A stretch of DNA of 23,850 nucleotides from a virus. Location of the stretch: positions 1-23,850 of the IMG/VR virus record IMGVR_UViG_3300009409_000052; one strand, written 5' to 3'. Positions 3,117 to 21,623 of this stretch are shown in pieces. The notes beneath the pieces are model-generated. The model made no database searches. It was not told the origin of the DNA and was given only the letters and a program-made list of their open reading frames with translations. The position numbers and the translations under genes are program-made. Numbering within the stretch: position 1 is the first letter of the stretch; the number at the start of each line of letters is the position of its first letter.

Positions 3117-5506
3117 TACTTTCCTCTTGTTCTTTCTCGGGCCGTATCGTTACGCATTAAAGCTATGTCTTCGGTACTACTGATTCTACGGTTTTGTATT
3201 TCCATATTTCGAGCGTTTTTCTCTTGTTCAAACTGTAATCTTTGTTGATCGTATTGTTGATCAGACTGTTGGTCTGTCTCTTTTAAATCTAGTTCGCGTT
3301 CTTTTAAAGCAATTAATGGATCATCATCTTCACCAGACGGTGGAAGATTAGATTGATAGTCTTCTATCAACTGTGCTTGTGTTTGCGCTACTAAAGCAGC
3401 CATTTCATCTTCGGATTGTATTCCCATTTGTGGGGCTTGTTGTTCCGCAATCACTTGAGCTTGTAATCCTAAGTGATCATAAATATGTTTTTCCAAAGTC
3501 AGCAAAACAGGAGGCTGCTGTTGAGCAACGGCACTTTGCATGTAAGACATATGAACCTTGATATGTGCCTGATGGTCTTGTTCCGGAAAGGCTTTCAACT
3601 CCCCTTGTCCTTTAGCTGCATCGCTTGAATTTTGGTTTTCAGTAGCGGGGTCTACAGGAGAAGAAATAGGTTCTTCTTTTAAAATTTCATCTATGTTCTG
3701 TACCCCTAATGCCTGATACACACGGGTATAGGCTTGGTGCATGTTGTGCATTTCTGGGTCTGCGGTTGCAAGTTTTAACTGCTCCTGTGCTAAAACCACC
3801 CTTTGTGACATGCTGAATATATTAGGATCACTTACAGGTAAAATGTCTATTTTATTATCAAAATCTTCAGACTTAACAACTTCTTCCGACTCAACTTGGT
3901 AAGGATAAGGGGTAGGGTCTTCGGCAAACAACTTTGCCAACATTTTTAATTCTATTTTCATACTGGCGTACATGCGCTTATGCACCGCCGAAACAATACG
4001 AGAACCCCGTTCCAAAAGGGCAATAGTGGTTCCTACTGGCATTTCTTGGTTACTATCTCCTACACCCATATCAGTTGTGCCAACAAACCGTTGGGCTGCA
4101 TCCACCACAAAACCCATTAACTCAAATAAAGTCCGGCTTGGTTCCTTATAAGGTAAAGGGATCAAACTGGCTTTTATATCTCCTCCGGGAACATCGATGT
4201 CACGCCACTCTCCAGGATTCAACGGATTTCCTTGGTCTGCTATTCTTAAGCCTCTAGCTTTAAAGCCAGAAGGCATGTTGGCTAATGTTCCCGCATCTAC
4301 TAATTGGCGTAAGGTACTGGTAGCCGTTCTACTCAAATTTCCTATTAAATGAACAAGACCAAAGCCATAAAAGCCCAGTCCTGGAGTAAACTTGTATTGA
4401 ACAAAATAGGGAATTCTTTGGGTTAACACATCGTCTTCTGCATAGTTACGGCTTATGCGTAGGATAGTATTCATGTCATCACAGACAGTTACAATATAAG
4501 GAAGTTTTAGTTCTGTTGGGTTCCCTTCTTCATCTTCATGGGGGAACTCCTCTAAATCTAAAAAGCAATGACACTCATATAAGGTTACTTCTTCATCGGA
4601 GCCAGTGTTCTGTATGCCTTCTAACTTATCATATTCATCTTGGATAGAATCAGAGCTACTACTTCCACTTTCTCTGATTTTTGTATCGGTATAAAAACCA
4701 CCCAACTGCATTCTCAGCAATTCATTTTTAGACATTTTTACAACGTGGGTGATTCTTTCTGCTGTTCTTAAGTCGGTAGCCGAGTAAGGGACAAGTAAAT
4801 CTTCAGCGGGTACGAACTTACTAACCACTTTTTGAAGGGAATCGTCATAGTAAACTTTCTTAAACGCACTACCAGCAAGACCCAGAAAATAAAGCATCTG
4901 GTCGAATTCTGCTTCATACTCTTCCATGCCATACATGATCTGATAATTCATGTATTCTTGCACCCGCTGTGCCTGTTTTTCTATTTCTGGGGTGGACTTC
5001 CCTACAATTTGGGCATTAACAGGGCCGCTACTGGGGAGTAATTCTTTATAGGCTTGGGCTTGAAACTGTGTAACAGCTTCATTTAATACAGGGTGGGTAA
5101 CTCCGGTAGCTCCGGCAAAAGGTTGGGTTCTATCTTGATAGCGTAGCCCTAAAAGTTTTAATCCTTTTATATAGGCTTCGGACCATTCACTACGGCTACT
5201 TTTGTCATCTTCTACTCCACCAAGAACTTCAGATTTTATTTTACCTAATGTTTGGTCTTCTAAATCTGGGGCTAGATTTCCAAAAAAATCTGTTAAGACT
5301 TCTTCGTCCTCGTCCTCTTCTTCTTCTGGTAAGAGTAGCTCCGACTCGTCTTTAACTATAAAGACATCTGTTTCCTCTTCTTGGGGGGTTCCTTTTCTTA
5401 AAAGAATTTCTTCTTCTTCGAAAGAAACTTCCTCGTCCGTCAAGCCACCTAAAGGTGCTTGTACTAATGATCGGTCAATGTTACTTGGTCGCGGAGTCTC
5501 TGCCAT
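3116..5506 (-). CDS. portal protein
   Basis: A 796-residue protein forming the dodecameric head vertex through which DNA is packaged and ejected. Residues about 24-75 are very acidic. The core contains features I recognise from large portals of podovirus-like phages: GLKLLGLRYQDRTQPF, then HPVLNEAVTQFQAQAYKEL, then EFDQMLYFLGLAGSAFKKVY, and the crown-proximal PGLGFYGFGLVHLIGNLSR. The C-terminal 150 residues are Gln/Glu-rich and helical, matching a barrel or coiled-coil end. The length is near that of the P22-type portals. It overlaps the terminase gene by one base (TAATG) and directly follows it, the standard packaging order. The acidic start and Gln-rich end are the least conserved parts. 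The identification is firm; the exact subfamily is not. Confidence 0.9.
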   Translation of the reverse strand: MAETPRPSNIDRSLVQAPLGGLTDEEVSFEEEEILLRKGTPQEEETDVFIVKDESELLLPEEEEDEDEEVLTDFFGNLAPDLEDQTLGKIKSEVLGGVEDDKSSRSEWSEAYIKGLKLLGLRYQDRTQPFAGATGVTHPVLNEAVTQFQAQAYKELLPSSGPVNAQIVGKSTPEIEKQAQRVQEYMNYQIMYGMEEYEAEFDQMLYFLGLAGSAFKKVYYDDSLQKVVSKFVPAEDLLVPYSATDLRTAERITHVVKMSKNELLRMQLGGFYTDTKIRESGSSSSDSIQDEYDKLEGIQNTGSDEEVTLYECHCFLDLEEFPHEDEEGNPTELKLPYIVTVCDDMNTILRISRNYAEDDVLTQRIPYFVQYKFTPGLGFYGFGLVHLIGNLSRTATSTLRQLVDAGTLANMPSGFKARGLRIADQGNPLNPGEWRDIDVPGGDIKASLIPLPYKEPSRTLFELMGFVVDAAQRFVGTTDMGVGDSNQEMPVGTTIALLERGSRIVSAVHKRMYASMKIELKMLAKLFAEDPTPYPYQVESEEVVKSEDFDNKIDILPVSDPNIFSMSQRVVLAQEQLKLATADPEMHNMHQAYTRVYQALGVQNIDEILKEEPISSPVDPATENQNSSDAAKGQGELKAFPEQDHQAHIKVHMSYMQSAVAQQQPPVLLTLEKHIYDHLGLQAQVIAEQQAPQMGIQSEDEMAALVAQTQAQLIEDYQSNLPPSGEDDDPLIALKERELDLKETDQQSDQQYDQQRLQFEQEKNARNMEIQNRRISSTEDIALMRNDTARERTRGK

Positions 5507-6975
5507 TAGTAATATACTCTTTCTTTAAGTACGGGGTCGTTGTCTTGATGATCTTCTGGATGAGTAATGAAACCGCCTTCTCTAAAACGTCGTAATGCTT
5601 GAGTTACAGTGTCTACATAATCATCATGCTCTCCGGAAGGAAAAGCACCGCACTCTTCAATTACTTCTTCTGACCAACGGGTGTCAGGAGCCCATACTAA
5701 CCCACTTTCAAATAATGGGGCAATGGCATTAACCCGTGACATCTTATCATTGCCACGGCTAGGAGTATAATTTGTTACAGGAATGCCCATTGTTCTCAGC
5801 TCTTGGGTTAGCGGCATACCACTGGCTTTAGCCTCTATCAATACCATTTCGGGATCCCAATACTTATACTCTTCAAGAGCTAATCTTCTTAACTCAGGAA
5901 AATCCCATCTTCCTCGTTTTGCATCCACTAAAATAATATTAGGGGGGCCATCTTCTACTGGGTAAAACACTCCCCATGTGGTTATAGCACTATAGTCGGC
6001 GGACTCCTTCTTACTAAACGCTGTGTCATAACTTTGCATAAGATAAGCCAACTGCGGTATTTTTGAACTTTCCCATGTGCGCCACCACTCACGTTTTAAT
6101 ATGGCACTTATCTCACTGGTTGGGTTCTGCTGCCATTGGGCTTCCCACTTACCTACGGTCAAACTACCCTTTACACTCAGCAAATCCTCTTTTTTCCAAT
6201 ACTCAGGCCACAACGGTTTATCATCTGGCATCAACGCAGGAAACTCTACAATATCCCACTTATCCGCTAATATATCTCTGCCCTGCTGTCGAATCAACTT
6301 TCCGGTCAAATCATTATCGGCCCAACGGGTCATTACAATTACTATACTGCCTCCGGGCTGAAGCCGTTGGCGCGGGCCACTGGTGTACCACTCATAGGCA
6401 TTTTCCAACGCCATAGGACTAAGCGCATCTTGCTCACTGTGGGGGTCATCAATTATTAATAAATCCGCACCTCGGCCAGTTACCGCACCACCCACACCTG
6501 CCGCAAAGTATTCTCCACCATCATTTGTCTCCCAACGTCCCGCCGCTTGGCTATCCGCTCGCAACGTCACTCCAGGAAACAAAATCTTATACTCATCACT
6601 ATTCATCAAGTTACGCACCTTACGGCCAAATCTAAATCCTAACTCTGCCGTATGCGTAGTCTGCATTATCTTTAAGCGCGGGTCATTACCCATCATCCAT
6701 GCCGGTAACAAAAAACTAGCAAACTCACTCTTAGTATGGCGCGGCGGCATATTCACTATCAATCGCTTAATCTCACCTTTCGCCAACTTATCAAACTTCT
6801 CCGCCATCGTTCTATGGTGTCGGCCATTTATAAACTCAGGCCACGCCAACTTCACAAAGTCCATAAACCCCGCTCTGGCTAACTCTCCACTCTGTATCTG
6901 GCTTGCTCTATCTAACAAAGAAGCGTAATTCTTTAGCCTCTCTTCTGGAATATTCGACAATTCTTCTATGCTCAT
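5506..6975 (-). CDS. terL: terminase large subunit (packaging ATPase-nuclease)
   Basis: A 489-residue motor protein from the ATG at 6975. The ATPase half has a Walker A-type loop MPPRHTKSE at 76-84, Walker B LLIIDD at 172-177 and a coupling motif IVIVMTRW near 211-218. The nuclease half has the RNase H-like acidic residues: Asp317 in SYDTAF, Glu381 in LIEAKASG, and the Asp cluster in HDDYVDTVTQAL near 450. The reading frame extends 12 residues further to a TTG at 7011 preceded by AAGG. I prefer the ATG because the extra residues add no recognised motif, but neither site has a strong ribosome site. Its small subunit is encoded 1.7 kb away at 8639-9175, with a nuclease gene, a control region and an unlike gene between. 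Terminase genes are more often adjacent. Confidence 0.93.
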   Translation of the reverse strand: MSIEELSNIPEERLKNYASLLDRASQIQSGELARAGFMDFVKLAWPEFINGRHHRTMAEKFDKLAKGEIKRLIVNMPPRHTKSEFASFLLPAWMMGNDPRLKIMQTTHTAELGFRFGRKVRNLMNSDEYKILFPGVTLRADSQAAGRWETNDGGEYFAAGVGGAVTGRGADLLIIDDPHSEQDALSPMALENAYEWYTSGPRQRLQPGGSIVIVMTRWADNDLTGKLIRQQGRDILADKWDIVEFPALMPDDKPLWPEYWKKEDLLSVKGSLTVGKWEAQWQQNPTSEISAILKREWWRTWESSKIPQLAYLMQSYDTAFSKKESADYSAITTWGVFYPVEDGPPNIILVDAKRGRWDFPELRRLALEEYKYWDPEMVLIEAKASGMPLTQELRTMGIPVTNYTPSRGNDKMSRVNAIAPLFESGLVWAPDTRWSEEVIEECGAFPSGEHDDYVDTVTQALRRFREGGFITHPEDHQDNDPVLKERVYY

Positions 6976-7164
6976 AAGTTTTATAGTATATCGAAAATTT
7001 TTATAGGACAATAAACCTTAGTGTTAAATAGTGTTCAAGGGTACTCTGTCCATAATTAATTTGACCATTACGAACTGTTCGAAACACTATAACAGCACCC
7101 TATGGGGTACTGTTAACTGTCTCTGGGGGGTTGCGGTTTAATGTGTGCTACGTGGTACCTTAGC

Positions 7165-7185
7165 AAAAGGTGCCAAGTACCTTTT
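7165..7185. other. short inverted repeat, possible second hairpin after the island gene
   Basis: AAAAGGT (7165-7171) and ACCTTTT (7179-7185) are perfect 7-base arms around a 7-base loop. The T-run on either strand would let it act as a weak bidirectional terminator. It lies just past the stronger terminator at 7198-7230 for leftward transcripts, so it may be a backup. Confidence 0.35.
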
Positions 7186-7197
7186 ATTGCGCGCACT

Positions 7198-7230
7198 AAA
7201 AAGCCGCTTGCTATGTTAGCCAAGCGGCTT
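7198..7230 (-). terminator. Rho-independent terminator of the island gene
   Basis: On the minus strand, AGCCGCTTG and CAAGCGGCT (plus-strand 7202-7210 and 7221-7229) form a perfect 9-bp GC-rich stem with a 10-base loop, followed at once by a run of five T. It starts about 23 bases after the stop codon of the gene at 7253-7804. It would separate that gene's transcript from the terminase large subunit gene. Confidence 0.85.
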
Positions 7231-7252
7231 GCTTACTTGCTAGGTTTAACTG

Positions 7253-7804
7253 CTACTTTTTAGTAACAGTTGGTGTAACTACTAATTGCACCAAAGGCTT
7301 ACCAAAAAACGCATGCTTTTTAGTAATGCTATTAGTGCCACTTAGCAACATGCAAAGCGTGTTACCGCTTGCAATATTGCCTGTAACAATTTTGCCACCG
7401 CTAGCGGTAATGGCATTGGCTATTACACCTAAGTTAGTACTAGCGCCATTGCCACCAACAGTGGCTAGCGCCATTGTTTTAAATGCCTTACGCTTATTGG
7501 TACTAATAGTGCTAGCCTGTACGCCAAACAACGCGCACTGTAACTGGTGGCCACGTGTACCTGTATTGGTACAAAACATGCCACTGGCATGCTTAACCCA
7601 GTTAACCGGCGTAATGCCTAAGCTTTTGCCAAATGCTGTAACTTGCACAGTTACATTAGCTAAGCTGCTAGCAGCATTATTACTTAGCCAAGTGGCAATG
7701 CTTGCGCCATTGGCTTGCCCGTTATTGGGTAATGTATATGTAGCACCTTTGTTAAGGTTAGCTACGCCATTTACTACTGGAACTGATTTTTTAGTATTTT
7801 GCAT
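7253..7804 (-). CDS. moron-like cargo gene of unknown function, SOS-boxed
   Basis: A 183-residue protein from the ATG at 7802-7804, chosen because AAAGGA lies 8 bases before it; the frame runs 22 codons further upstream without another good site. I do not recognise the product. It is rich in Ala, Gly, Asn, Ser and Thr, with a basic C-terminal third and Lys-Lys at the end. It has Cys residues in MFCTNTG, QLQCAL and TLCMLL and no signal peptide or membrane segment. Codon use differs from the neighbours: no GGA glycine, only CGT arginine, and AGC/AGT for nearly all serines. It has its own promoter region with a perfect LexA-type box (7885-7912) and its own terminator (7198-7230). That is the definition of a moron: an autonomous cargo gene placed between phage transcription units. 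A DNA-damage-induced product is inferred. A long open frame on the opposite strand (7326-7874) is judged a composition shadow. Confidence 0.7.
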   Translation of the reverse strand: MQNTKKSVPVVNGVANLNKGATYTLPNNGQANGASIATWLSNNAASSLANVTVQVTAFGKSLGITPVNWVKHASGMFCTNTGTRGHQLQCALFGVQASTISTNKRKAFKTMALATVGGNGASTNLGVIANAITASGGKIVTGNIASGNTLCMLLSGTNSITKKHAFFGKPLVQLVVTPTVTKK

Positions 7805-7884
7805 ATATATTTCCTTTAAAGTTTTAAGTATGTATTTAAGTAAGCAAGGTAATAATACCACCTTTAACACTTAATAACACACTT

Positions 7885-7912
7885 ATTATACTGTTCATTT
7901 ATACAGTATAAT
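7885..7912. promoter_or_regulatory. LexA (SOS)-type operator
   Basis: A perfect dyad: 10-base arms ATTATACTGT (7885-7894) and ACAGTATAAT (7903-7912) around the 8-base spacer TCATTTAT. The core is TACTGT-N8-ACAGTA, which matches the E. coli LexA consensus (taCTGT, 8 bases, ACAGta). On the minus strand it covers TATACT and TATAAT, both possible -10 hexamers, about 80-110 bases before the ATG at 7804. A bound repressor would block that promoter. An unrelated phage repressor could also use such a dyad. Confidence 0.75.
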
Positions 7913-7937
7913 TATTAAGCATATGTAAACAGCAATT

Positions 7938-7959
7938 AGTAACATGTATATAGGTTACT
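7938..7959. promoter_or_regulatory. second dyad upstream of the SOS-type box
   Basis: AGTAAC (7938-7943) and GTTACT (7954-7959) are perfect 6-base arms with a 10-base AT-rich spacer. The centre-to-centre distance to the LexA-type box is 50 bases. It may be a second regulator site for the same promoter; no matching family is recognised. Confidence 0.35.
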
Positions 7960-8001
7960 GTTACGACTTTAAAAGAGTAAGCAAATGATATCTTCCTCCC
8001 T

Positions 8002-8071
8002 GATCGTTGGCGATCGGCAATGATCTAAGAAGATCGGCAATGATCTAAGAAGATCGGCAATGATCTATTGT
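8002..8071. repeat. array of seven GATC sites at exact 10-bp spacing (iteron-like)
   Basis: GATC begins at 8002, 8012, 8022, 8032, 8042, 8052 and 8062, without a one-base slip. The 10-bp units alternate between GATCGGCAAT (three times) and GATCTAAGAA (twice), bracketed by GATCGTTGGC at the left and GATCTATTGT at the right. This also reads as a 20-bp tandem repeat from 8012. An AT-rich stretch (TTATATATA) follows at once. All sites fall on the same face of the helix. Possible roles are a replication origin, a terminase packaging (pac) site or a Dam/SeqA-sensitive switch; none is proven. It is not a CRISPR array: the units are far too short and lack spacers. Confidence 0.9.
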
Positions 8072-8106
8072 TATATATACGAGGGCATAGGTCAACCGCC
8101 AATCGG

Positions 8107-8229
8107 CTCTTGTCAACTCTTCTCCTCTCGTAGTAGGGATCCGATTAGAAACGAACAGAGGGGAATGGACAAGAGGCGACTAGACTAGAGGGGAACTGAC
8201 ATGACTAGACGGGAACTGACAAGAGTAGA
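8107..8229. repeat. family of about 20-bp repeats, one copy inverted
   Basis: Two tandem 20-bp copies, 8183-8202 and 8203-8222, share GACTAGA then GGGAACTGACA with one mismatch in the core. A third, looser copy lies at 8155-8175 (AGAGGGGAATGGACAAGAG). A fourth is inverted at 8107-8130, reading GAGAAGAGTTGACAAGAG on the minus strand. AATCGG (8101-8106) and CCGATT (8141-8146) form another inverted pair. With the GATC array just to the left, this fills the non-coding region before the nuclease gene. It may be protein-binding sites for packaging or replication. Confidence 0.7.
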
Positions 8230-8631
8230 CTAACCTTCCCTCCTCTGCGAAAGGATAAAGTCAAGCATCCCCTCCCAATCGTAGGGCTTTCTCGTACACC
8301 AGTCAGGTGTCATTTGTTCTTTTCTATCTCTTGTTGGTCCAATATCAATTGCCCTCTCCCCTCTAAATATATTTAGAGTCTCACCGGAAGGATGACCAAC
8401 CAAGTTTAAAACACACCCTTTCTTCTGTGTGTATCTTATTTGCCACGCTATTTGATGGGGACTTAGGTTTACATACTTTAATGACTTTAAGCTATGCAGC
8501 TTGAGTTCTAACCAAAAAGGGAATCCATTTATGATCCCATGTACGTCTGGTATTCCTGGCGTTGCCCATGACTCTAAACGTGTCCAAAATACATCATGCT
8601 GCTTAGTTGCGTCCCGCAAGTTTTGCCACAT
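8230..8631 (-). CDS. PD-(D/E)XK-type nuclease (VRR-NUC/resolvase-like)
   Basis: A 133-residue protein from the ATG at 8631; a TTG at 8652 would add 7 residues. The nuclease signature is visible: GIPDVHG with Pro28-Asp29, then FWLELK with Glu42 and Lys44, then SPHQIAWQ with Gln60, the order and spacing of PD-(D/E)XK enzymes of the VRR-NUC and Holliday-resolvase-like kind. The rest is short and lacks a DNA-binding domain, so it may act in a complex. It begins 8 bases after the small terminase stop and is presumably cotranscribed with it. Roles consistent with this: trimming replication or packaging intermediates, resolving branched DNA before packaging, or degrading host DNA. The family is fairly sure; the substrate is not. 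Confidence 0.7.
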   Translation of the reverse strand: MWQNLRDATKQHDVFWTRLESWATPGIPDVHGIINGFPFWLELKLHSLKSLKYVNLSPHQIAWQIRYTQKKGCVLNLVGHPSGETLNIFRGERAIDIGPTRDRKEQMTPDWCTRKPYDWEGMLDFILSQRREG

Positions 8632-8638
8632 TTTGCTT

Positions 8639-9175
8639 TCAGGTTTTTTCAACTTCGCCTTCTATTAGGATGCTATCCTCACCCACCGCAGCCAGTAAAG
8701 GGTACTGCTCTTGTAGTTTAGCTATTTCTCTTAGCACTTCTTCTTTGTTCATGTTGTCTATTTTACCATGCAGGATTTCCTTGCGCTCAATGTATAAGCC
8801 CGCAGCCTGACCCCTATTTTTCTCTGCTGCTACCGCTGAGGCATAAGCCCCATCACTTAAAGCAACGTCTCTTATTTCAGCTAGTTTTCTTACGTGGTTT
8901 TCAAATGTTACCTCGTACTTTAGGCCGAGTTCTTTTTTAACTTCATAGACTCTTGCTACTACGTGCGGATATCGCACCCCGTCTAGTAGTTGTGATGCTA
9001 TTGCATGGGCGCTTTTTTTAGAGTACCCAGCCCTGACTGCTGCTTCTGTCTGGCTTACATCTTCGCAACAATAAATCCTCACAAATGTTTCTTGTTTAGG
9101 AGTTATCTTTTTTTCAGTGCGTGGGTTGGCTACGATTTTGAGGTGTGGCTTATGTGTCTTTTTAGGTAGGGGCAT
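8639..9175 (-). CDS. terS: terminase small subunit
   Basis: A 178-residue protein with the Terminase_2-type N-terminal DNA-binding region at about 24-64: ITPKQETFVRIY, then QTEAAVRAGYSKKSAHAIASQLL, a helix-turn-helix pattern with AGYS. The middle (80-140) is helical, fitting the ring-forming oligomerisation part, and the C-terminal end is acidic, fitting contact with the large subunit. The small subunit recognises the phage DNA packaging site. No ribosome-binding site precedes the ATG. The -10 hexamer TATAGT lies only 11 bases upstream, so the message would begin about 5 bases before the start and be nearly leaderless. The repeat-rich region 8002-8229 lies just downstream, where a pac or cos-type site could be. 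Confidence 0.88.
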   Translation of the reverse strand: MPLPKKTHKPHLKIVANPRTEKKITPKQETFVRIYCCEDVSQTEAAVRAGYSKKSAHAIASQLLDGVRYPHVVARVYEVKKELGLKYEVTFENHVRKLAEIRDVALSDGAYASAVAAEKNRGQAAGLYIERKEILHGKIDNMNKEEVLREIAKLQEQYPLLAAVGEDSILIEGEVEKT

Positions 9176-17848: not shown

Positions 17849-18239
17849 CAAGGTTTAAAACCTCAGACTCTACTAAAAGCAGGTATCTACGCAAGTCACG
17901 TATATCATCGAGTAAGCCATCATCTCTCCGGTCTTCCATCATAGCTCTAAAAACATCGTAAGAATGTTCTTGGTTCTTCACAGTGTTTTCAATTCTATCC
18001 CATTTACGGGCTAACATCATATACGCCCCTACTCCCCCACGCTTTTTCCAACTGTTCCCATAATCTTTTTCTTTTTCTATAAGTGTTTCTATGTCCGACT
18101 GCATTGCTATACACACTCTCAGCATCTGCTGACTTAATGGATGGGAGAAAAAGTTAGAAACCGCCTCCTCAATGTAAGGATCTTTTGTGGATTCTCCGGT
18201 ACAACCATTCGGTACATGCTCTTCTCCAAGCTCTGTCAT
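17841..18239 (-). CDS. Nmad1/DUF1599-like helical protein
   Basis: A 132-residue, all-helical protein. The key block is KEKDYGNSWKKRGGVGAYMMLARKWDRIE (55-83), followed by a helix with RDDGLLDDIRDLRRYLLLVE (104-123). The K-DYG-SW step and the closing DDxxDLxxYLLL resemble the DUF1599 family, which Iyer and colleagues named nucleotide modification associated domain 1 because it is encoded near base-modification genes. The helical plan with conserved acidic residues also recalls MazG-like nucleotide pyrophosphatases; a role in trimming nucleotide pools is an inference. A good GGAG site precedes the ATG. It overlaps the thymidylate synthase-family gene by 71 bases, an unusually long overlap, so the two frames evolve under joint constraint. 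Confidence 0.65.
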   Translation of the reverse strand: MTELGEEHVPNGCTGESTKDPYIEEAVSNFFSHPLSQQMLRVCIAMQSDIETLIEKEKDYGNSWKKRGGVGAYMMLARKWDRIENTVKNQEHSYDVFRAMMEDRRDDGLLDDIRDLRRYLLLVESEVLNLDE

Positions 18240-19170
18240 CTATTTTCTCCGCTAGTTCAACTGCTTTAGTTAAGTTATCTTTTTTATACTCCGCCCATGA
18301 ACTTCTTACGAAGCTACAAGTTTCAGATAAATAATCATTGAGGTACTGTTTCGAATCCTGGATATCGGCCATCCAACTGTCAAGCTCTACATCAAATGTT
18401 TCTTGAACAGTAACTAAAGGAGGAGGCTTATAAGAAAGCCCATCTTCCCCTAATGTTAAGTAAGGGTCATACTCTCGTGGCAACCCTTTTAATTTTTCTA
18501 GCAGATGACTATAGGCATGAAGGTTATTAGTAAAATGGTAATAACTCCCTATCTTTCCACCTACTCTTGCTGCCATGTACTCATGTAAAACACTCATATG
18601 AACAGCATTAGCGCCAAATGTTCCCCATATCAAATCGTTACTTCGATTAGTTATAGTCATGTCTAGCTTGTTAGTGTCTGAGTGAAGGTTAAAATAAATG
18701 GCGGTGTTACAAGGTAAATCATTAATAAGGTTATCCTCTCTTAAATCTGAGTTACCGTCCCACATAGATACCACCGTTCTTCTATCATCGGGATAAGTTC
18801 TTAAACGCTGAACAGCAATTTCTAATTGGTCTTTCTTAAACCAGTTACGCCACCGATATCCGTATGCCCCATGGAATATTTTCCCATCATCTGAAAATTC
18901 ATGGATACGGCTATTGTATTTATCCACAAACTTTACATCTCTTCTCCCATTGAGCATCCACAATGATTCCATTAAATGGAAAAAAGGATTCGCATCTCGT
19001 TGTTGGTAAAACAACACTCTTTCTACTGGGTTACAGTACTCTATTAAAACAGGGGAATTAAAAGCTATAACCTCACCGTTACGGCTGTCACTTCTTTTTC
19101 CTTCTATTAAGAGTGCTTCCATGACACGAGATAAACCCTCGCTTGGACCCCGTACACTAAAGGTATACAT
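18169..19170 (-). CDS. thymidylate synthase-family enzyme, possible dUMP hydroxymethylase
   Basis: A 333-residue ThyA-family protein. Family residues are present: Glu68 in HLMESLWML, Arg130-Arg131 in DDRRTVVSMW, Cys154 in DLPCNTAIYF (the nucleophile), Asp179 in TNRSNDLIWG, Asn188 in GANAV, His218 and Tyr220 in NNLHAY. It differs from housekeeping ThyA. The RSxDxxLGxPFN stretch reads RSNDLIWGTFGANAV, there is a longer C-terminal helical part, and the closing tail of true synthases (ending AxV) is missing. The Asn at 188, if equivalent to E. coli Asn177, favours dUMP over dCMP. Phage relatives with this signature make 5-hydroxymethyl-dUMP. With the genes beside it this is a plausible first step of thymine hypermodification, but plain dTMP synthesis cannot be excluded. 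A GAGGAG site lies inside the end of the preceding gene. Confidence 0.8.
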   Translation of the reverse strand: MYTFSVRGPSEGLSRVMEALLIEGKRSDSRNGEVIAFNSPVLIEYCNPVERVLFYQQRDANPFFHLMESLWMLNGRRDVKFVDKYNSRIHEFSDDGKIFHGAYGYRWRNWFKKDQLEIAVQRLRTYPDDRRTVVSMWDGNSDLREDNLINDLPCNTAIYFNLHSDTNKLDMTITNRSNDLIWGTFGANAVHMSVLHEYMAARVGGKIGSYYHFTNNLHAYSHLLEKLKGLPREYDPYLTLGEDGLSYKPPPLVTVQETFDVELDSWMADIQDSKQYLNDYLSETCSFVRSSWAEYKKDNLTKAVELAEKIDDRAWRRACTEWLYRRIHKRSLH

Positions 19171-19173
19171 CTT

Positions 19174-20493
19174 TTAATCCTCCTCTACTAAGTCAGCCCC
19201 TATACCAAAGAATTTTAAATTTTTCTTGGAAGCTTCCCTTACTTCGTCACTTAACAGTCCTTTCTCGGCACTATATTGGTTTGTGTCTCGATCAGCAAAA
19301 TCTAACCATTGAATAACATTTTCATAAGCACCTGCCACTTTTTGTAGATCAAATCTTGGTAATAACTCTAAGTTGTTCTCGCGTATTGTTTGCCACTGCA
19401 CCTTATAGTCTTCACTTAAACAATGGTCAAGTAAGGCAGCGTAATAATTGGGAGTGGTATCGTGGGGAATTTGTACATAGTTAAGATCTGGTTTAAATAT
19501 TTTACTGTCTTTCATTCCTAGGTCAGTTGCCATAGGGACAGCACCACATATCATGGCCTCTACAGTTGTACGGTTAAAATGAGCTCCGTAGGCGGCATAC
19601 TTATAAGACCAACTTGGGTCTACCTGTAGTTTAGACTGCATTAAATGGGCATACACACTAGAGGTTGGGATAGTTCCCAAATACATCATTCCTCTTCTGA
19701 GAGCTTCGTCCCAGATTTTTGTGCCGTGTTCATTATAATATTTAGGTTTGCACTTATCCTCACTTGTCATATAGCGGTACTCAATTCCCGACCCCCCAAT
19801 ACGTTTATGTTGAGTACTGTTCATTAAAGGAATAGCGCGTATTAATTCGTCCACCCTTTTCCATGCTTTAAAAATCTGTACTGAAGTAAATCCATTTCTT
19901 GCATCAAAACCTAACGGAGCAAAGCCCTCAGGATTTCTACGCCATGCGCGTAGGTCAAAGGGGTTAACAATTAATATACGTTTTAGGTCAATAGTAGCGG
20001 CCGAGTTGTAAGCGGCCTCATGTACACATATCAACCCTTTAAAATAATCTTTGACATGGTTTAAGTGAGGATACAGTTTAGGGAAGTTACCATCATGAAG
20101 AATGGCAAAGTTTTTAGCTCGTGGATTATATAACTCTACCCACTCCGCAACACCTTTGTTTTCTTTGTTTAAGGTAGGTACAGGTATGTGCCACAACACC
20201 CCGTCATATTCCTCGCAGCGGTCTCTGAAGGCTTCTCGAGCGGTTGCGTTTAGGTAAGGTACTTTAGGCAACCCTGTCCATCCTCTAGCTTGGTTAAACT
20301 TATAACCTGTACCTTCTGGATTAACTTGCCAGTCTGTACGCTTGGATTGTACGTTAATGATCTTGTGTCTAGGACATAACATAACCACATCTACTTGATG
20401 ACCGTTACGCCTGAACCCGTGTGTGAGATTTTCAAGATGGTTTATTATCCCACCGTAATCTTGTATTTGGTAAAGCGTCATTAAGATTTTCAT
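19174..20493 (-). CDS. GT-B glycosyltransferase
   Basis: A 439-residue protein with the GT-B plan. The N-terminal Rossmann start is MKILMTLYQIQDYGGIINHLENLTHG (glycine-rich loop and helix, as in GT4 enzymes). A central part contains IFKAWKRVDELIRAIPLM, and the donor half has YAAYGAHFNRTTVEAMICGAVPMATD (about 299-324). Glu312 corresponds to the first Glu of the EX7E motif; the second is replaced by Pro. Activated sugars are transferred to an acceptor, here most likely hydroxymethylated DNA or possibly a host surface sugar. Its ATG overlaps the stop of the upstream gene by 4 bases (ATGA), and it is tightly linked to the ThyA-like gene. Placement in a base-modification operon favours DNA. The acceptor is an inference. 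Confidence 0.75.
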   Translation of the reverse strand: MKILMTLYQIQDYGGIINHLENLTHGFRRNGHQVDVVMLCPRHKIINVQSKRTDWQVNPEGTGYKFNQARGWTGLPKVPYLNATAREAFRDRCEEYDGVLWHIPVPTLNKENKGVAEWVELYNPRAKNFAILHDGNFPKLYPHLNHVKDYFKGLICVHEAAYNSAATIDLKRILIVNPFDLRAWRRNPEGFAPLGFDARNGFTSVQIFKAWKRVDELIRAIPLMNSTQHKRIGGSGIEYRYMTSEDKCKPKYYNEHGTKIWDEALRRGMMYLGTIPTSSVYAHLMQSKLQVDPSWSYKYAAYGAHFNRTTVEAMICGAVPMATDLGMKDSKIFKPDLNYVQIPHDTTPNYYAALLDHCLSEDYKVQWQTIRENNLELLPRFDLQKVAGAYENVIQWLDFADRDTNQYSAEKGLLSDEVREASKKNLKFFGIGADLVEED

Positions 20494-21623
20494 TCAACTG
20501 GTCCTCTTTTTATAGGGTAGACTCCACCTACTTTGTATTTACAGATAGAACGTGGCCTTCCTTGATTTTCCTTCACCCGCATGTATTTGTCAAACTCACA
20601 TAAGCTATGCTCTATACAGCGCATGTCAACATCACCAAAAGCGATGGGTTTATAACCTCTTTTGTGTGCTATTTCATGAAGCATGTACTTAGAAGAAAGT
20701 AGATAGCGCATCTTGAATAAGGCTTCTTTTGGCGCATGTCTCTTCTTAAGATCTTCCTTCCAGATACGGTTAAGTCCACGCAAAGCTCCAGGACCGGCAT
20801 TAGCCCAACTATATCTGTCTACAACATAGTCGGTGGGGTTTATAAGTCTTGCCTCTCCACGAGATCTCCCTGAAAAGGTTCCACGTACCTTGCTGTAGGT
20901 GGGGGTATGTAATAAATCACAAACCACCTCGTAAGCCATAAATCCTCCTCCACCAAATCCCCTAAATTTACTTAACTCACTATGAAGCGCCCTGCATGAA
21001 GTAAAAGGGTTGCCAGTGATATGGTTAACGGTATCACCTAAAGGAAATTGGCGGGGAGGTTGCATTGATTCCCATAGCGGGGTAATAAAATTATCTATAA
21101 CCACTTGGCTTTTCGGGGCTTTAATGCCTTGATTAGTAACTATATACGCGCCCGTAAAACACTTTTGTTTTCTACCTATACGCGACTGTATAATTTGCTT
21201 TATCTTTTTAGGATCAAAGTGATGTGCTGTTATCCACCCATGCTGTTCTAAAAACTCTTCGGCAAACTCTATCGTGCCTACCATTCTAAACAGGGCAGCG
21301 TTGATTATATTGTTCTGTTGTGTGGCTTTTTCTTCTGTCTTTGGGCGGAAGTTTTCACGCATCCAAATAGTTACTGCATCGTTTTCTCTAAACGGATTAG
21401 TAAACTTATACTTCTGAAGAATAGGGTTATCAGTCCAAGGAGCTCTTTGGCTAGAAGAAACGGTGTGATTTACGGATGTGATAGGGGTAAAAGGGGCAAG
21501 CTCCCCAACTCGCCTACGGTACATTTCATGACGCTCAACAATCCAATCGTAAAACCCACTGTTGATTAACTGTTTTTCATCTATGACGAGCTTTTCTTTT
21601 AGTGCTGTGTAGGTTGAATCCAT
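20490..21623 (-). CDS. 5-hmdU DNA kinase helical domain / aGPT-pyrophosphorylase-like protein
   Basis: A 377-residue helical protein. Conserved blocks: FYDWIVERHEMYRRR (24-38), PWTDNPILQKYKFTN (62-76), FTGAYI (156-161), GFGGGGFMAYEVVCDL (222-237), WANAGPGALRGLNRI (273-287) and EHSLCEFDKY (338-347). This is the pattern I associate with the helical domain of 5-hydroxymethyl-dU DNA kinases and the related alpha-glutamyl/putrescinyl-thymine pyrophosphorylases, described by Iyer et al. as a DNA-glycosylase-like helix-hairpin fold in phage base-hypermodification systems. There is no P-loop (GxxGxGKS/T), so the kinase part is absent and may be encoded elsewhere. A strong ribosome site (AAAGGAG) precedes the ATG, and it starts the operon with glycosyltransferase and ThyA-like genes. 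Expected role: acting on 5-hmU in DNA or installing an activated group. Family assignment is from memory of the motifs. Confidence 0.7.
   Translation of the reverse strand: MDSTYTALKEKLVIDEKQLINSGFYDWIVERHEMYRRRVGELAPFTPITSVNHTVSSSQRAPWTDNPILQKYKFTNPFRENDAVTIWMRENFRPKTEEKATQQNNIINAALFRMVGTIEFAEEFLEQHGWITAHHFDPKKIKQIIQSRIGRKQKCFTGAYIVTNQGIKAPKSQVVIDNFITPLWESMQPPRQFPLGDTVNHITGNPFTSCRALHSELSKFRGFGGGGFMAYEVVCDLLHTPTYSKVRGTFSGRSRGEARLINPTDYVVDRYSWANAGPGALRGLNRIWKEDLKKRHAPKEALFKMRYLLSSKYMLHEIAHKRGYKPIAFGDVDMRCIEHSLCEFDKYMRVKENQGRPRSICKYKVGGVYPIKRGPVE

Follow-up and report, generated by a model that had tools for sequence, protein, structure and literature searches.

A GATC array in exact 10-bp phase is one edge of a GA/TC-free desert between the terminase genes of marine viruses of bacteria

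What purpose might seven GATC sites at exact 10-bp steps serve in the DNA between the two terminase genes of an uncultured virus? The sites lie in a window of 23,850 nucleotides (the whole stretch analyzed here, positions 1 to 23,850 of IMG/VR record IMGVR_UViG_3300009409_000052), from which an earlier note had singled them out and proposed several functions for them. The window letters place the GATC starts at 8002, 8012, 8022, 8032, 8042, 8052, and 8062, as that note had claimed, so that the array, which belongs to neither strand in particular, occupies 8002–8065. Its dismissal of chance also held, since in 400 first-order Markov resamplings of the window a 10-bp GATC run was never longer than two and none approached the seven-site run. 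However, the count alone overstates the surprise, because residues 8012–8067 form a perfect 2.8-copy tandem repeat of a 20-bp unit (GATCGGCAATGATCTAAGAA) to which five of the array units belong, and the seven sites are consequently not independent events. The proposal that all sites lie on one face of the DNA is roughly right but not exactly so, as the spacing is 10.0 rather than 10.5 bp, which for standard B-DNA amounts to a drift of about 100 degrees over the seven sites.

The worry that the array is simply a tandem duplication is removed by its relatives, in which the spacers differ but the 10-bp phase persists. Across 74 non-redundant loci, found via protein similarity and not via the GATC pattern, the GATC-GATC pairs upstream of terL number 106 at a distance of 10, 53 at 20, 33 at 30, and 18 at 40, against about four at an average other distance (e.g., two at distance 11 and four at distance 21), and downstream of terL the relatives have no 10-bp peak. 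Between the phased sites there are 75 distinct spacers across phages, 27% of which contain extra GA/TC as opposed to the 52% expected from their letters. That the pair peaks are kept while the spacers are diverse indicates that what is conserved is the GATC phase and not a repeat unit. When 2.9 million viral contigs were scanned blindly for five GATC sites in 10-bp phase, 47 matched, about half of them with relatives of the terS, VRR-NUC-like, or terL genes of the window, and in these contigs the array is between the VRR-NUC-like gene and terL. The earlier note had suggested a search of related phages for the array; they keep the phase, and the array is without exception located between terL and the terS/nuclease genes.

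The genes surrounding the array are all on the minus strand. The terminase large subunit gene, terL (5506–7011; phrog_38, Terminase_6C), is downstream, and the terminase small subunit gene, terS (8639–9175; Terminase_2), encodes a protein that has an SF6 G1P-type DNA-binding domain and matches the SF6 G1P structures 3zqp, 2cmp, and 4zc3 (DNA-binding domain and full-length protein). The model of this protein (pLDDT 65) is of poor quality except in the DNA-binding domain. The array had been described as beside terS, which is approximate, as a small VRR-NUC-like nuclease gene (8230–8652; phrog_2165, phrog_93), syntenic in the relatives, intervenes. The order from terS to terL is therefore terS (9175–8639), the VRR-NUC-like gene (8652–8230), an array of NNNTC units (8232–8138), a few units of the opposite sense (8129–8103), the GATC array (8065–8002), and then DNA nearly empty of GA and TC. 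No DNA relatives of 7780–8660 were identified in the phage collection, and neither an Rfam search nor a tRNA search gave a match.

The GATC array is one edge of a larger signal. The earlier note missed its two larger neighbors, the 8138–8232 array (GANNN when read on the plus strand) and a segment of 658 bp (7122–7780) from which GA and TC are missing on both strands, which we refer to as the desert. The upstream edge of the desert is leaky (7781–7965) and consists of gaps of 83 and 70 bp, both adjoining the desert, which are the next-longest GA/TC gaps of the window. By comparison, the longest gap in the 400 Markov windows averaged 62 bp and never exceeded 97 bp. The desert spans a gene, orfX (7804–7253), with its flanks, and ends about 110 bp short of terL. 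We compared 72 non-redundant relatives whose terL reached at least 70% identity and whose upstream sequence was long enough. A desert of 500 bp or more is at the same place in 55 of them, the longest being 1,170 bp, and most of the remainder have leaky deserts. The closest isolates, HTVC023P, HTVC027P, DSL-LC04, and 023Pt_psg01, have no desert. The deserts of the relatives mostly end about 100–500 bp upstream of terL, and the six near-complete genomes have one desert apiece. An unbiased search of degenerate words two to three letters long identified GA/TC as the one avoided. The two strands avoid it equally, non-coding parts are as clean as coding parts, and in L139, L140, and L150 the avoidance reaches hundreds of bases past the gene. 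The GC content of the desert ranges from 0.25 to 0.63 across relatives. Mutational decay by a TC-specific deaminase (C-to-T) was considered and is out, as deserts have up to 63% GC and dinucleotides other than TT/AA also serve as substitutes.

Two groups of relatives depart from this pattern. In the clade of L012 and L014 the avoided words are WTC/GAW (594-bp gap) and ATC (up to 1053 bp) and not all TC, the WTC-avoiding region comprising L012:6933–7367 and L014:2989–3423 and their surroundings. This is as would be expected if the avoided word follows the specificity of an enzyme, and it suggests that in this clade an underlying specificity has shifted. L092 and L100 have nearly lost the desert upstream of terL (the 600-bp minimum is ~0.6 of expected) and have kept their orfX homologs. 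A host search matched only three marine metagenome-assembled bins, and the desert-bearing viruses are a family of marine bacterial viruses. The desert is apparently undescribed: no description of such a dinucleotide-free island was found in the literature searched, which did not extend to many subscription papers, and we know of no described island of this kind.

The gene inside the desert, orfX (7253–7804, minus strand), encodes a protein of 183 residues with no Asp or Glu. Every desert holds a co-directional member of this gene family with practically no acidic residues (0.0%), and paralogs outside deserts have normal numbers of them. For 51 loci both copies could be compared, giving medians of 0.000 GA/TC per bp and 0.0% Asp plus Glu for the desert copy vs. 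0.102 GA/TC per bp and 8.3% for the copy outside the desert. (The extra opposite-strand orfX copies in clade A may in part be matches by composition and call for caution.) Because acidic residues are normal in the paralog outside the desert, these comparisons indicate that the constraint acts on the DNA and not on the protein. An acid-free protein as the cause was rejected on the same ground, and also since GA and TC are just as absent from the non-coding flanks. The Shine-Dalgarno sequence of orfX, AAGGAAA, holds one of the few TC dinucleotides of the leaky edge. The predicted fold of the protein is confident (pLDDT 85), and no structural match to the model was identified in the PDB or BFVD.

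The upstream border of the desert has further phased modules in addition to the GATC sites. The array at 8138–8232 has 19 units in 5-bp phase, NNNTC on the terL-sense (minus) strand, and is at the same position in L001–L009; the longest 5-bp run in the 400 Markov windows was six. Between it and the GATC array is a short array of the opposite sense (8103–8129; six units of TCNNN on the plus strand, also in 5-bp phase) which is also found in L008 and L009. Clades without GATC arrays still have deserts, and their borders are other phased modules dense in GA/TC, for instance (TGGA)n or (CCGACCGAC)n. At the start of L139 (−1847 to −1713 relative to terL) a 9-bp tandem array, (CCGACCGAC)n, borders the desert in place of the GATC and TC arrays. 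In five of the six near-complete genomes the 150 bp richest in GA/TC are within ~1.5 kb of the desert. A separate observation concerns L003, whose single array (3477–3520) resembles the beginning of array 1 joined to the last part of array 2 in its relatives (L001:6043–6106, L001:6963–7006, and L002:1662–1715 were compared), as if in-phase recombination of paired arrays had deleted the intervening orfX-like copy.

On the other side, between the desert and terL, is a conserved element of ~110 bp (7012–7125, minus strand), which has the same place in relatives and consists of CCCCCC(t)GAGAC, a hairpin, a GTTTNNNACRAATC-like box, AAAATTAT, and CCCCCCT, with CCCCCCT motifs on both sides of the hairpin-containing stretch. 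It is a candidate terL promoter, or could be a cleavage site. The start codon of terL appears to be TTG in a conserved TAGGTTCATTG context.

A potential explanation for the avoidance of one dinucleotide comes from a cluster of minus-strand genes elsewhere in the window: a thymidylate-synthase-like (ThyA-like) gene (18169–19170), whose product is a presumed dUMP hydroxymethylase; a gene for a GT4-like glycosyltransferase (19174–20493), which has weak Pfam matches and is a conserved neighbor in G001; and a gene for a PF18723 protein (20490–21623), a homolog of phage M6 gp55, a thymine hypermodification enzyme of aGPT-Pplase1 type. In 22 contigs or records of ~47 kb or more, the PF18723 and ThyA-like genes were both found in 13 of 13 genomes with deserts or strongly depleted (leaky) ones vs. 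none of nine desert-less relatives (Fisher p = 2e-6, uncorrected for kinship). As the compared relatives share ancestry, this link is a correlation with few independent events. L100 has kept the modification genes though its desert is almost lost.

At the gene level, the pairing of ThyA-like and PF18723 genes is that of M6/ViI-type hypermodification. Phages M6, ViI, and phiW-14 share the PF18723 homolog with the window phage, and M6 also the ThyA-like gene, but these three have neither a GA/TC nor a TG/CA desert. M6 has, in addition, the 5-hmdU kinase HMUDK (PF18748), which is absent from the desert phages, only the M6 control being matched. No desert was found in the other PF18723 phages (M6, phiW-14, ViI, RaNi, TM26, and Sonora), and modification alone consequently does not require one. 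The thymidine hypermodifications of M6, ViI, and phiW-14 are in TG or TC dinucleotides, as deduced from restriction data (PMC6449724). The simplest link would be that TC is the modified context in the desert phages and that the desert is a zone without hypermodified thymine. The remark in the earlier note that thymine modification would alter the GATC sites looks apt, as the desert goes with the ThyA-like and PF18723 genes.

Several functions can be proposed for such a zone, and the most likely of them is in the initiation of DNA packaging, based on the constant position between the two terminase genes, the SF6-type TerS, and the helical phasing of the border. Tentatively, and at somewhat under an even chance, we suggest that the GATC array is a border of a pac-like packaging-initiation region that is patterned by modification and read by TerS. 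In such a scheme, the phage ThyA-like, PF18723, and glycosyltransferase enzymes would hypermodify T before C (TC, with GA on the opposite strand), and the one stretch of 0.6–1.1 kb kept free of TC and GA on both strands would be without hypermodified bases. The blank zone would be edged by some of the genome's most GA/TC-dense DNA, set in helical phase, with a TC every 5 bp and a double-stranded GATC every 10 bp. The SF6-type TerS would assemble on this phased, densely modified border, and TerL would make its first cut in or at the accessible unmodified blank, as at a pac site. A 10-bp period would fit a TerS ring whose subunits touch one face of bent DNA about once per turn. The desert would then probably exist because modification must be kept off the packaging start site. 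That the whole constitutes a packaging signal written in base modification, in which a blank of 0.6–1.1 kb and phased modified-thymine borders direct where terminase starts, is possible but we hold it with less than even confidence. A terminase-binding pac site was one of the functions that had originally been suggested for the array, and of those it is the best reading: the position between terS and terL and the SF6/SPP1-type domain of TerS support it.

A location at the terS and terL genes is also general to pac sites. Upstream of terL, contig ends show a broad enrichment but no sharp peak, and five contigs have end overlaps, four of them of 77–126 bp, so that contig ends say little on the genome ends. 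Fixed genome ends near the desert were considered and rejected, as contig ends are widely scattered. The small terminase of SPP1/SF6 is a ring-shaped TerS that makes phased contacts on bent DNA, and the TerS of the window matches both the DNA-binding domain and the full-length structure of SF6 G1P. The pac sites of SPP1/SF6 are short boxes in DNA that is not hypermodified, and to our knowledge a dinucleotide-free island has never been described for them. CAjan-type phages have a GA motif for dPreQ0. CAjan, whose deazaguanine modification is of another chemistry and gene set, has no GA/TC desert (longest gap 81). In phage 9g, another deazaguanine-modified phage, whose DNA is heavily modified, the pac site has been mapped next to terB, with direct repeats at the cut (PMC5567051).

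The locus might instead be a replication start zone, in which the desert would be an unmodified, easily opened origin and the arrays iterons for an initiator. Iteron-like phased arrays do adjoin a long stretch of special composition, of which there is one per genome; however, its place is tied to terS and terL and not to replication genes, a desert GC of 0.25 to 0.63 leaves no AT-rich unwinding element, and a gene fills most of the desert, so that we consider an origin unlikely. The iteron origin that had been suggested from the array itself also fails in that the array lacks the direct repeats of iterons, only GATC and its phase being kept among the 75 spacers, no initiator was found, and nothing points there. 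Just as unlikely is protection against an enzyme, of the phage or of its host, by which TC/GA is cut or marked, whereby a segment needing to be free of marks would survive only without any target. Such an enzyme would account for the zero tolerance for one dinucleotide on both strands, and a nuclease gene adjoins terS. But this gene is present in desert-less relatives too, the phased borders would be unexplained, and no TC-specific nuclease was found.

We regard as improbable that the arrays are regulatory, a protein binding the phased sites ahead of every orfX copy. L001, L002, L007, L045, L050, L053, and L070 have two arrays, roughly one per orfX copy, and this occurrence of an array before each copy in some clades counts against the packaging reading and could mean a role in orfX expression. 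However, regulation would leave unexplained the lack of GA/TC on both strands of both the coding region and the non-coding flanks, and the GATC array is missing from some deserts.

A methylation switch of Dam/SeqA type at the phased GATC sites is very unlikely. Its attraction is P1 pac, which by analogy is the closest known system by function: at PacA/PacB, GATC clusters beside the terminase genes lie on both sides of the cleavage zone, and Dam modification of them controls processing (PMC10028697). The desert phages likewise have GATC clusters at the terminase genes, but theirs are in exact 10-bp phase with variable flanks, whereas P1 has TGATCA/G hexamers in two irregular clusters (spacings of 7, 12, 15, 96, 12, and 11) and no dinucleotide desert (the longest GA/TC gap is 48 in the 10.8 kb examined). 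The modification in P1 is Dam adenine methylation, and neither a Dam (PF05869) nor a D12 methyltransferase (PF02086) was identified in any of 13 long desert-bearing contigs. Since spacing, modification, and desert all differ and no Dam-type methylase was found in those contigs, we do not class the locus as a P1-type pac. The sensing by Dam/SeqA-type proteins proposed in the earlier note is likewise unsupported, as related clades have deserts bordered by TC, GA, or TGGA arrays without GATC runs.

Still less weight can be given to a constraint on RNA, in which the transcript would have to avoid GA and UC, e.g., to escape an RNase: the desert largely overlaps a transcribed gene, but the avoidance is equal on both strands and continues well past the gene, and the transcript of the paralog is unconstrained. 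Chance or local duplication, for which the 20-bp repeat at 8012–8067 might have spoken, is already refuted by the many phages whose spacers differ but whose phase is the same and by the 400 Markov windows, none of which came near the run or the gap.

The finding is thus real and larger than first noted, and its anatomy is, at the level of sequence, firmly established. Gene-length DNA that has been purged of one dinucleotide on both strands, at anything from 25 to 63% GC, represents a strong constraint at the DNA level, whatever its function. This ban overrides amino-acid content, as the entire orfX protein family within the deserts has been forced to lack acidic residues. If our preferred reading is true, and the desert is a packaging start site kept free of modified thymine, it would explain, in a way open to direct test, how a terminase begins packaging when the genome is heavily modified. 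Sequence alone would then also reveal in which context uncultured phages carry their modification, TC in most of these viruses and WTC in one clade.
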